Positions 39,882 to 47,404 of a stretch of 64,000 bases of DNA are shown here, one piece after another (positions within the stretch are counted from its first letter, which is position 1; every line of letters begins with the position of its first letter). The notes under the pieces were generated by a model. That model saw only the letters and a list, made by a program, of their open reading frames with translations, ran no database searches and had not been told where the DNA came from. The translations under genes were made by a program, and so were the position numbers. The stretch is from Gammaproteobacteria bacterium (lineage in GTDB: Bacteria > Pseudomonadota > Gammaproteobacteria > GCA-001735895), in the NCBI GenBank assembly GCA_029862005.1, contig JAOTYD010000009.1, positions 1-64,000 of the forward strand. Reading direction: 5' to 3'.

Positions 39882-42814
39882 GCCTCTGCCGCCATCGCTG
39901 TATCAATACCCGGAAGGTAGATGTCGAATCGACAGCCAGCCATGGACCTGCTGGATACCGAAATCGAACCCCCGTGTTCCTTGACAATATTATAGGTCAG
40001 CGATAGCCCGAGGCCGGTACCTTCACCAACGGTTTTAGTGGTAAAGAAAGGTTCGAAAATTTTAGACAGGTGTTCCTCGGGAATGCCCTTGCCCTGGTCT
40101 TCGACCGATATCAGGACCTGGCTTCCGTAAACTGCTGAACCGATGGTTACGGTCTGGCCGGGTTTCGAAGCGTCGGTCGCATTGGAGAGCAGGTTAACAA
40201 ATACCTGCACCAGTTTTTGCGCGAATCCCTTGACCATGAGGCCTGTTTCACATTGGTTCCGGTAATGCATTTGCTTGCCGGCCTCACTCAGCGAGACCAG
40301 GTTAATCGCTTCATGAATAACCTGGTGCAGATCGATAATTTCCGAGGGATATTCGTCGGGGGCCCCGGCACGACTGTAATTGGAAAGCGATCCGACAATG
40401 CGCGCAATGCGCTCGGTCTGGGTCAGGATCCGATCGAGATCCTGTGTCGCCCGCGGTGTATCTTCAAGTACCGAACGCAAATCCTGAGCGAGGCAGGCGA
40501 TGCCGGTCACCGGGTTACCGATTTCATGCGCAACGCCCGAGGCAAGCTGACCGATTGACGCAAGACGTTCGCTATGGGCAAGTTTTTCCTCCAGCAGGTG
40601 ACGTTCACTATGGTCTTCAATGAGGATAGCAATTCCACTGTTGTCTTCCCTTTCCCGGCTTACAACGGCCTTGAACAGATTAAGCACCCGTACCTGGTCT
40701 TTAACCGTAACCTTGAGCTTGCTGATTAAAAACTCGTCGCTGGATTTAAATCTCGCCAGCAGATCTCGCCACGGCTCCTCGAGTTGATCGATGGAATTGC
40801 CAATTGCGTCGCCGAGCCTGATACCGGTCAACTTGCTGAGCTCCTTGTTCCAGCTCAGAATAATTCCCGCGTTATCGATCGATACGACCCCGAGCGGCAG
40901 ATCCTGCAGTACCTGGAAGTGAAAACGCCGCAAAGCATCCAGTTCGCTTGACACACCGCGCAATTCGCTGCGTGATTTCTCCTGGCTGTTTTCAACGAAC
41001 TGGATGGTATCGGCGAGCGCCGACTGGGTCGCACGATCTATCTGCAGGTGCTCATTGACGATCATGCGTGACAGTACGGGACCAACCAGGCCCGAAAGAT
41101 TCCGATCGATCTGGGCGCGCAGGCGGGTAAGGTCAGCCTGGTTAATCTCGCCCGGGGTCAGGCCAAGATCGGCAAGGGCGCGATCGACCTCGTTGTGCGC
41201 AATGTCATGGCCGACGATGCTGCCCAGCTGCTGTTCGAACTCCGCGATCGAGGTCGCTTTTACCGAACCTTTAGGCATCAGGAAGCTCTCGCGACTGCAG
41301 GCTTCGGCCACCTCCCGTTCATCCGCGGACTGCCGACTCATTAGCGATACGATAACAAAAGTTAGACTGTTCAACAGCAGCGACCAGAGTGCCGCATCGG
41401 TAGTGCTCATCGCGAGTTCCGGAATCGTAAAAAAGGGTGTTTCAATAATTCCGGCGCGTTCAAACAGCGGGACAAATAACGTGAATACCCAGATAGTTGC
41501 GCCGACAATCAAGCCACTGACAAAACCGGTCCTGTTGGCGCGCGGCCAGTAAAGCAACCCGATTACCCCGGGGAGGCATTGCGCCACTGCAACGAACGAG
41601 ATCAGGCCTAGCCCGGCCAGCCCCGGATTATGGGTTTGCACCAGGTAGAATATGTATCCAATGGCAACGATCGACATGATGACGAAGCGACGACCCCACA
41701 ACAGCCATTCGTACATGCTGGTGCCGGAGGACAGCTTGGGTGGAAAGCTTGCAGGAAGTACGAAATTATTCATGCACATGGATGCCAGTGCCAAAGTGGT
41801 CACGATGATCATCGCACTGGCCGCGGAAAGGCCGCCCATAAAGGTTAATATCGGCAAAATCGAAGACCCGCTTTCGAGTGTAATTCCGAGTACGAAAAAA
41901 TCAGCCGGTATATCGAGCTGCAGTGATTGACCCGCCCAGAGAATTGGCGGAATCGACAGGTTCAACAGTAGCAGGAAAAGGGGAAATGCCCAGCTCGCGG
42001 TTTCGATATTCTTGTGCTTGATGCTCTCGACGAAAATCATGTGGAACTGGCGCGGCAACAGAAACGCGGCAGCAAAGGAGAGCAGCATTAATGTCGCCCA
42101 GGGACCCTCCTGTACCGGCGTAAACAACGCTGCATTAATTTCTGGATGCTGGTCCAGGTAGCGGTTGAGTTCGCCGAATCCGCCAAAAATTCCAAATACC
42201 GCAAATATTCCCACGCTTAGCAGCGTGACTAACTTGACCAGCGACTCAAACGCGATTGCGACCACCAGGCCCCGGTGCTTTTCTCGCAGAGAGATGTGCC
42301 GGGTACCAAACAGGATTGAAAACAGGCCGACCGTGATGCAAAACATCAACGCGATCAAATGCTGTTCGGTTTCATTGGTCATGATTTGCAGTGTGTTCGT
42401 GACCGCCTGTATCTGCAGTGACATGTAGGGCAGGGTGCCGGCCAGCACCAGCAGTGTCACCAGCACCCCGGCAAGCTGGCTGTGGTAGCGAAAAGCGAAC
42501 AGGTCAGCGAGCGACGCCAAGCGATAGGTCTCGGTGATTTTCAGTATCGGCCTGAGCAGGATGGGTGAAGCGACGAAAGCCAGCGTGGTTCCCAGGTATA
42601 TGGTCAGGAAGTTAAACCCCTGTTTTTCAGCAAAACCGACGCTGCCGTAAAAGCTCCAGGATGTTGCGTATACGCCGATGGAGAGTGAATAAATCAACGG
42701 GTGGCTGGCCAGGGATTCCGGAATCCAGCCACGATCGGTAGCGGTTGCGATCAGGAATAACAATCCCAGGTAGAGCACCCCGACCAGGAATAACTGCCAC
42801 AGTTCAAACTGCAT
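39878..42814 (-). CDS. cbrA: Sensor histidine kinase with Na+/solute-symporter domain, CbrA-like
   Basis: A 978-residue membrane sensor, about the size of Pseudomonas CbrA. The N-terminal ~480 residues form an SLC5-type symporter domain with many membrane segments (for example [20 protein letters not shown]). A STAC-like region follows ([20 protein letters not shown]), then a PAS domain ([20 protein letters not shown]), the phospho-acceptor His in [12 protein letters not shown], and an HATPase with [20 protein letters not shown]. There is no receiver domain, unlike CrbS. I choose the ATG starting [12 protein letters not shown]; it overlaps the end of the small upstream gene by 11 nt. The ligand may be an amino acid or organic acid. 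Confidence 0.9.
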
Positions 42815-46743: not shown

Positions 46744-46792
46744 TTGCAAGTTCTCATTCTTTTCTCTAAACTGGGTGAGAATAAAGTGAGAA
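46744..46792 (+). promoter_or_regulatory. lexA promoter with a two-armed TTCTC/GAGAA operator
   Basis: TTGCAA (46744-46749) and TAAACT (46767-46772) are 17 nt apart and could be -35 and -10. The spacer between them is TTCTCATTCTTTTCTC (46751-46766). Its imperfect inverted copy GAGAATAAAGTGAGAA (46777-46792) covers the likely transcription start; 13 of 16 positions match. Each arm itself is a direct repeat of TTCTC with an 11-bp period. Including the preceding G, the first arm reads GTTC-N7-TTTC, which resembles the alphaproteobacterial LexA box GTTC-N7-GTTC. No gammaproteobacterial CTGT-N8-ACAG box is present. Confidence 0.6.
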
Positions 46793-46804: not shown

Positions 46805-47404
46805 ATGCTGACTTCACAGGAACAAAAGACACTCCAGTTTATCCGCAATTACCTCGCGCAATACGGCTATGCCCCAAAATTCAAGGAAATTGGAATCGCC
46901 ATCGGCGTAACATCGCATGGCACCATACACCGCTACGTGCAGTCGCTGGAAGACAAGGGTTACATCAACCGGGTCAAGGGCAATTCTCGCGGCATGAGCC
47001 TTGTCGATTTGCCGCTGGTAAGTCCGCCCACGATACCCCTGGCCGGGAAAATCGCGGCCGGATCCCCGATTGAAGCGATCGAAGACCAGCAGGAACTGAA
47101 CCTGGCCGAAATGTTCATGGGTCCCGAGTTATTCGCGCTGCGCGTTACCGGCGATTCGATGATTGATGCCGGTATTCTCGATGACGATTACGTGATCATA
47201 AAGAAACAACCGGTCGCCAATGACGGGGACATCGTGGTTGCTATGATCGACAAGGCGGAGGCCACGTTAAAACGTTTTAAACGCAAGAGTGAAAGGCTGG
47301 TGGCGCTAATCCCCGCGAACGTCGAGATGGAGCCGATGATATACGCGGCCGAACGCGTCAGTATCCATGGCGTGCTGGTGGGCCAGTTAAGACACTACAG
47401 GTAA
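46805..47404 (+). CDS. lexA: LexA-type SOS repressor
   Basis: A 199-residue self-cleaving repressor. The N-terminal winged helix (LTSQEQKTLQFIRNYLAQYG, recognition region VTSHGTIHRYVQSLEDKGYI) is followed by the peptidase domain. Cleavage should occur between A85 and G86 (KIAAGSP), with Ser118 (TGDSMI) and Lys156 (ATLKRF) as the catalytic pair. Residues in the recognition helix (SHGTIHRY) differ from E. coli (SPNAAEEH), in line with a non-canonical operator upstream. It sits just after selO, with a probable own promoter. Confidence 0.93.
   Translation: MLTSQEQKTLQFIRNYLAQYGYAPKFKEIGIAIGVTSHGTIHRYVQSLEDKGYINRVKGNSRGMSLVDLPLVSPPTIPLAGKIAAGSPIEAIEDQQELNLAEMFMGPELFALRVTGDSMIDAGILDDDYVIIKKQPVANDGDIVVAMIDKAEATLKRFKRKSERLVALIPANVEMEPMIYAAERVSIHGVLVGQLRHYR

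Follow-up and report, generated by a model that had tools for sequence, protein, structure and literature searches.

Which repressor controls the SOS response in an uncultured gammaproteobacterium whose lexA promoter is built around an unusual repeat? The promoter lies in a stretch of 64,000 nucleotides (here, "the window") from a 3.99-Mb genome in 105 contigs. A preliminary description of this DNA reported two 16-bp inverted arms upstream of lexA, each of them a direct repeat with an 11-bp period, and proposed that they form an undescribed LexA operator.

Arm 1 (TTCTCATTCTTTTCTC) occupies positions 46751 to 46766 of the plus strand, and arm 2 (GAGAATAAAGTGAGAA) occupies positions 46777 to 46792 of the minus strand, where it reads TTCTCACTTTATTCTC. 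The arms are 16 nt each, inverted, 81% complementary (13/16), and separated by a gap of 10 nt. Each is an exact TTCTC-N6-TTCTC with a period of 11 bp (10/10 matching bases in both arms), as the preliminary description had said; its starting point, position 46744, is not part of an arm but the first base of a -35-like hexamer, TTGCAA (46744 to 46749, plus strand). A -10-like hexamer, TAAACT (46767 to 46772, plus strand), lies 17 bp from TTGCAA. LexA box 1 together with the preceding G makes up the whole 17-bp spacer between these hexamers, and LexA box 2 covers the point where transcription is expected to begin and the 5′ untranslated region of lexA. Both hexamers were read by eye; a sigma-70 consensus scan returned no promoter above threshold. 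Nearly all aligned lexA promoters share an upstream CTTGCA or TTGCA, and TAAACT or TAGACT is kept in most of those from the window's genus. The 42-bp pattern of the pair, with up to three mismatches allowed, has a single match in the window and no match in any of 100 shuffles. Single boxes with up to two mismatches are no rarer than chance (45 found in the window versus 48.8 expected), so the signal lies in the exact, paired form. No CTGT-N8-ACAG within one mismatch is found near the lexA promoter at 46.7 kb, in keeping with the reported lack of an E. coli-type box there; the nearest in the window are at 42480 and 52089.

The gene downstream (lexA, 46805 to 47404, plus strand) encodes a GTTC-type LexA repressor of 199 aa, here called LexA1. 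It matches TIGR00498 over its full length (177 bits versus a cut-off of 110.95) and comprises a LexA_DNA_bind domain (PF01726, a winged helix-turn-helix) and a Peptidase_S24 domain (PF00717). Residues A85-G86 (cleavage site AAG), S118, and K156 align with E. coli LexA (chain 7b5g), and we take them to be the Ala-Gly cleavage site and the Ser/Lys catalytic dyad established for LexA. The recognition helix, previously described as changed, does differ from that of E. coli; the difference is common to the GTTC-type LexA group, however, and is not unique to this protein.

The motif had also been predicted at recA and similar SOS genes, and it is present there. The window's genome contains 10 copies of the exact 10-base box (0 in the reversed control), with two of them at lexA, one at recA (its first base 65 bp before the recA start), and one at umuDC. 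When a 15-fixed-base consensus was searched for with at most two mismatches, eight sites emerged versus none in controls, with recA and umuDC at the top. We extended the comparison to 41 uncultured genomes from three genera of the same family, the only family of its order in our sample. The lexA pair was found in all 30 family loci read: box 1 was kept in every one, box 2 was exact in 29 and had one mismatch in the other, and 29 loci were exact in both boxes. The spacer between the boxes was 10 bp in 23 loci, 9 bp in 5, and 11 bp in 2. At recA, 30/30 family loci carried a box upstream of the -10 (29 exact and 1 with one mismatch), nearly always GTTCTCTTTATGTTCTC. Among the 20 umuD-like loci fetched, with the window's umuDC counted separately, 18 had an exact box, 1 had a box with one mismatch, and 1 had none; the box faces umuD in 16 of them, with a consensus of GTTCTCATTTTGTTCTC followed by TAT, and by eye the umuDC box forms the promoter spacer. 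Boxes at recA and umuD were seen singly rather than paired. Summed over the family's genomes, there were 290 exact boxes versus 62 in reversed controls. An operator at lexA, recA, and umuDC is what is expected of an SOS regulon, and we consider the box to be very probably the operator of LexA1.

The lexA promoters of genera g2 and g3 offer a further view of what is conserved. Here, the boxes are shifted, so that the likely -10, TATTCT, falls inside box 1, at a distance of 17 bp from TTGCAG or a hexamer like it (both read by eye). Because the promoter shifts while the pair, 9 to 11 bp apart, stays, the promoter by itself does not seem to account for these bases, and LexA binding appears to hold them in place.

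The operator is not of an undescribed type, and we reject that part of the preliminary proposal. Its strong sites, at recA (GTTCTCTTTATGTTC) and umuD (GTTCTCATTTTGTTC), match GTTC-N7-GTTC at 8/8 bases, and GTTC-N7-GTTC is the direct repeat published for alphaproteobacterial LexA (PMC8565304, PMC3323433, and PMC12907096). Arm 1, noted earlier as close to this box, reads GTTC-N7-TTTC (7/8), and arm 2 reads CTTC-N7-ATTC (6/8), the lexA arms being incomplete matches since they lack the G in one or both half-sites. GTTC-N7-GTTC was found in 7/7 alphaproteobacterial lexA promoters read, and the exact TTCTC-N6-TTCTC was found in 0/7 (best matches with two to three mismatches).

Kinship of the repressors points the same way. 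A tree built from 36 LexA proteins (L119, L042, L048, and L159 were dropped; L197, L198, and L207 are in neither of our two trees) places LexA1 of the window's family and other gammaproteobacterial GTTC-type LexA proteins in one group (support, 96/86). The alphaproteobacterial proteins (six rows) form their own group (100/99), and the gammaproteobacterial GTTC-type proteins stand beside it, not inside it. A branch supported at 99/97 parts these two groups together from one canonical gammaproteobacterial LexA as well as Gram-positive and other LexA proteins; an earlier tree with four extra rows, some of them long-branched, did not resolve the alphaproteobacterial link. A literature search, incomplete and thus not establishing absence from print, returned no gammaproteobacterial GTTC-type LexA. 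The operator type is known; the novelty seems to lie in the head-to-head arrangement of the boxes, in this gammaproteobacterial LexA subfamily, and in recA having apparently been captured.

Most genomes of the window's genus encode a second LexA (LexA2). In the window's genome it heads a lexA2-imuA-imuB-dnaE2 operon (L042, G000:C2:126000-140000), the imu and dnaE2 names being assigned from gene order and sequence. The operon is divergent from genes for a FAN1-like VRR-NUC nuclease and a Rad3/DinG-like helicase, which may share LexA2 control. Its promoter holds an imperfect palindrome of ~30 bp centred on CTGTTGCATACAACGG, which in relatives is CTGT-N8-ACAG-like; the imu promoter palindrome is of the CTGTTGCATACAACAG type, and in 15/21 lexA2 loci the palindrome is within one mismatch of CTGT-N8-ACAG (6 exact). 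No exact TTCTC box was present in the lexA2/imu promoters read. The imuAB-dnaE2 genes had been named among the expected targets of the TTCTC box; with a LexA of their own, a CTGT-type palindrome, and no exact box, we reject them as such.

Outside the family, the paired box tracks LexA genes. With a gap of 7 to 13 bp, the exact inverted pair was detected in 13/369 gammaproteobacterial genomes (control, 0); with a gap of 0 to 30 bp, there were 28 sites in 26/370 genomes (reversed control, 0). Four of these 28 sites are in the window's family, and the other 24 are in 22 of the 366 sampled genomes outside it. Twenty-two of the 24 adjoin a LexA gene, with a Y-family polymerase downstream of lexA in at least 10 (frames read by eye), and two adjoin a lone Y-family polymerase (G270 contig 4 and G448 contig 13). 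Gaps in these 24 pairs were 4 bp (three sites), 6 (two), 7 (four), 8, 10 (three), 11, 13 (three), 15, 16 (five), and 23. The plasmid-encoded LexA closest to LexA1 (44.9% identity) is from Methylophaga thalassica, where the plasmid carries a lexA-polymerase pair and one exact box. The recA test outside the family covered eight genomes in which a GTTC-type lexA accompanies a recA that scores above the family cut-off (a ninth, G270, gave none), and 0/8 had a recA box within one mismatch (best matches with two to four mismatches); one of the eight recA promoters has an exact CTGT-N8-ACAG. Among the genomes tested, the window's order alone showed a GTTC box at recA, so the GTTC-type LexA seems to have acquired control of recA there.

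Two variants of the paired site were also observed. In G388 (L153) and G303 (L166), a paired box separates a GTTC-type lexA from a divergently oriented DEAD/DEAH helicase gene, with an HRQ1-like winged helix in the L153 protein, and one symmetrical operator may govern both genes. In family f138 (L334, L335, and L336), the boxes are only 4 bp apart, a tighter pair, and in G384 of this family the whole site is a nearly perfect palindrome, TTCTCTATTCTTTCTC-N4-GAGAAAGAATAGAGAA.

From these sites, their conservation, their gene contexts, and the kinship of the LexA proteins, we infer a mechanism that we hold with high confidence: the two arms would be a head-to-head pair of operators for the LexA1 encoded just downstream, which would bind them, repress, and be cleaved, and which would have gained recA. 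Each operator would be a direct repeat of the half-site (G)TTCTC, one helical turn (11 bp) apart, and would probably take one LexA1 dimer, with both half-sites on one face of the DNA. The alphaproteobacterial type would pose the same puzzle of a two-fold dimer on a direct repeat. With box 1 filling the spacer between the two hexamers and box 2 placed over the start, bound LexA1 should keep RNA polymerase off the lexA promoter. Upon DNA damage, RecA filaments would stimulate self-cleavage of LexA1, releasing lexA, recA, and umuDC. Elsewhere, the targets of the LexA1 subfamily would mostly be its own gene and that of a neighboring Y-family polymerase; recA would have been added in the window's order, with the second LexA keeping imuA-imuB-dnaE2. 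The simplest reading is of two LexA proteins with two motifs and of SOS control (lexA, recA, and umuDC) that moved to the GTTC type. Binding, repression, and cleavage, as well as the direction and timing of this take-over, are predictions from sequence.

Other explanations of the repeat can be weighed against this one. The four half-sites might form one composite operator, bound by a LexA tetramer or by two cooperating dimers, with the inverted pair as the functional unit. The pair's conservation in 30/30 family promoters at a spacing of 9 to 11 bp would fit such a unit, as would the recurrence of pairs at LexA genes across the class. However, spacers of 4 to 23 bp outside the family hold no fixed helical phase, recA and umuD have single boxes, and one exact box was found at the lexA of the Methylophaga plasmid. 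The varying gap favours two independent dimers over a fixed tetramer; we disfavour one rigid tetramer site and regard a composite operator in general as unlikely. That the repeats arose by chance, or from the composition of pyrimidine-rich promoter stretches, would agree with the chance-level count of degenerate single boxes in the window, but the shuffles, the empty reversed controls in 370 genomes, and above all the conservation at recA, lexA, and umuD refute it, and the probability that we leave to it is negligible.

The box could also belong to another regulator, such as the LexA2 encoded in the imu cassette or a repressor resembling UmuD, with LexA1 as a bystander. Two LexA proteins do coexist in most genomes of the genus, and LexA1 was not found in 7/41 family genomes (G001, G006, G009, G010, G018, G026, and G028, one of them rated 98% complete), at least five of which retain the recA box. 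These absences from draft genomes are likely assembly gaps. Against a bystander role, g2 and g3 have LexA1 and the boxes, with no full-length LexA2 match among those listed; the lexA2 promoter carries another palindrome and lacks an exact TTCTC box; and the paired box follows GTTC-type LexA genes throughout the class. We consider ownership by another regulator very improbable, and we retain LexA1 as the probable repressor at this box.

Several boxes have other neighbors. In the window's genome, no SOS gene adjoins the boxes L001, L005, L006, L007, and L008 in the stretches read, and the L006 box is inside a coding frame; some of these five are probably due to chance. The two-mismatch scan of this genome added sites on C12, C16, and C18, also without a recognizable SOS gene. 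At L010 (G000:C68:4829-6991), the box at 1501 lies 8 bp before a LAGLIDADG-like open reading frame (PF14528 and PF00961). The sequence beside it resembles the 3′ end of tmRNA, but ARAGORN found no gene there; a box in G021 (L234, G021:C7) has similar sequence beside it. At L230 (G022:C6:1-3000), the first base of an exact LexA-type box lies 46 bp before the start of an integron integrase-like protein that is unusually long (453 aa; TIGR02249, 336 bits). Upstream sequence of this kind, again with a box, is also present at L227, L238, L240, and the window genome's own contig end, L005, with no integrase frame there. Since only 1/16 over-cut-off integron integrase loci read had a box before the integrase (G022, L230/L314), we reject integron integrases as a general target.

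Taken together, the data suggest that a LexA of foreign type has taken over the SOS response in this uncultured gammaproteobacterial group. A broader account, which we favour with some reserve, is that a widespread, undescribed LexA subfamily of Gammaproteobacteria, a sister group of the alphaproteobacterial proteins that is sometimes plasmid-borne with a Y-family polymerase, represses itself from a head-to-head GTTC pair; it would act as a local side-switch for mutagenic repair in most hosts and as the master SOS repressor in the window's order, where recA and umuDC would have been captured and the canonical-box LexA left with the imu cassette. The LexA binding motif changes unusually often in evolution. 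Our reading of two LexA proteins with two motifs fits a published model in which, once the first LexA is lost, control of the SOS network falls to a duplicate LexA that reads a new motif (PMC8565304). Relatives show an apparent intermediate state, a GTTC-type LexA over itself and a polymerase with recA lacking the box, and an apparent end state in which recA, lexA, and umuDC all have it, which makes the hand-over model testable. If this is correct, "before" and "after" stages of a LexA replacement have been caught in living relatives. The box also provides a ready consensus for SOS genes in gammaproteobacterial lineages that the E. coli box would miss.

The system shares with the alphaproteobacterial LexA box the GTTC direct repeat with its 11-bp period, 8/8 matches at recA and umuD, and grouping of the LexA proteins; it differs in its gammaproteobacterial host, in the extension of the half-site to TTCTC, and in the head-to-head pair at lexA. 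With E. coli and canonical gammaproteobacterial LexA (CTGT-N8-ACAG) it shares the self-cleaving family and lexA, recA, and umuDC as targets, whereas the E. coli box is absent from the window's lexA promoter, the recognition helix differs, and a CTGT-N8-ACAG-like palindrome stands instead at the second LexA, in the imu cassette. The LexA of Acidobacterium capsulatum was reportedly acquired from Alphaproteobacteria (Mazon 2006); it would likewise be an alphaproteobacterial-type LexA outside Alphaproteobacteria, but in another phylum. In Betaproteobacteria, a noncanonical LexA regulon, reportedly described by Sanchez-Alberola in 2015, also places the SOS response of a lineage under a noncanonical LexA; its motif is said to be inverted and Bacillus subtilis-like, unlike the direct repeat here. 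Pseudomonas putida has a lexA2-imuA-imuB-imuC operon (PMC5261740), and the second LexA of the window's genus heads lexA2-imuA-imuB-dnaE2 in the same order; in contrast, this genus has its noncanonical-box LexA over lexA, recA, and umuDC rather than in the imu operon.
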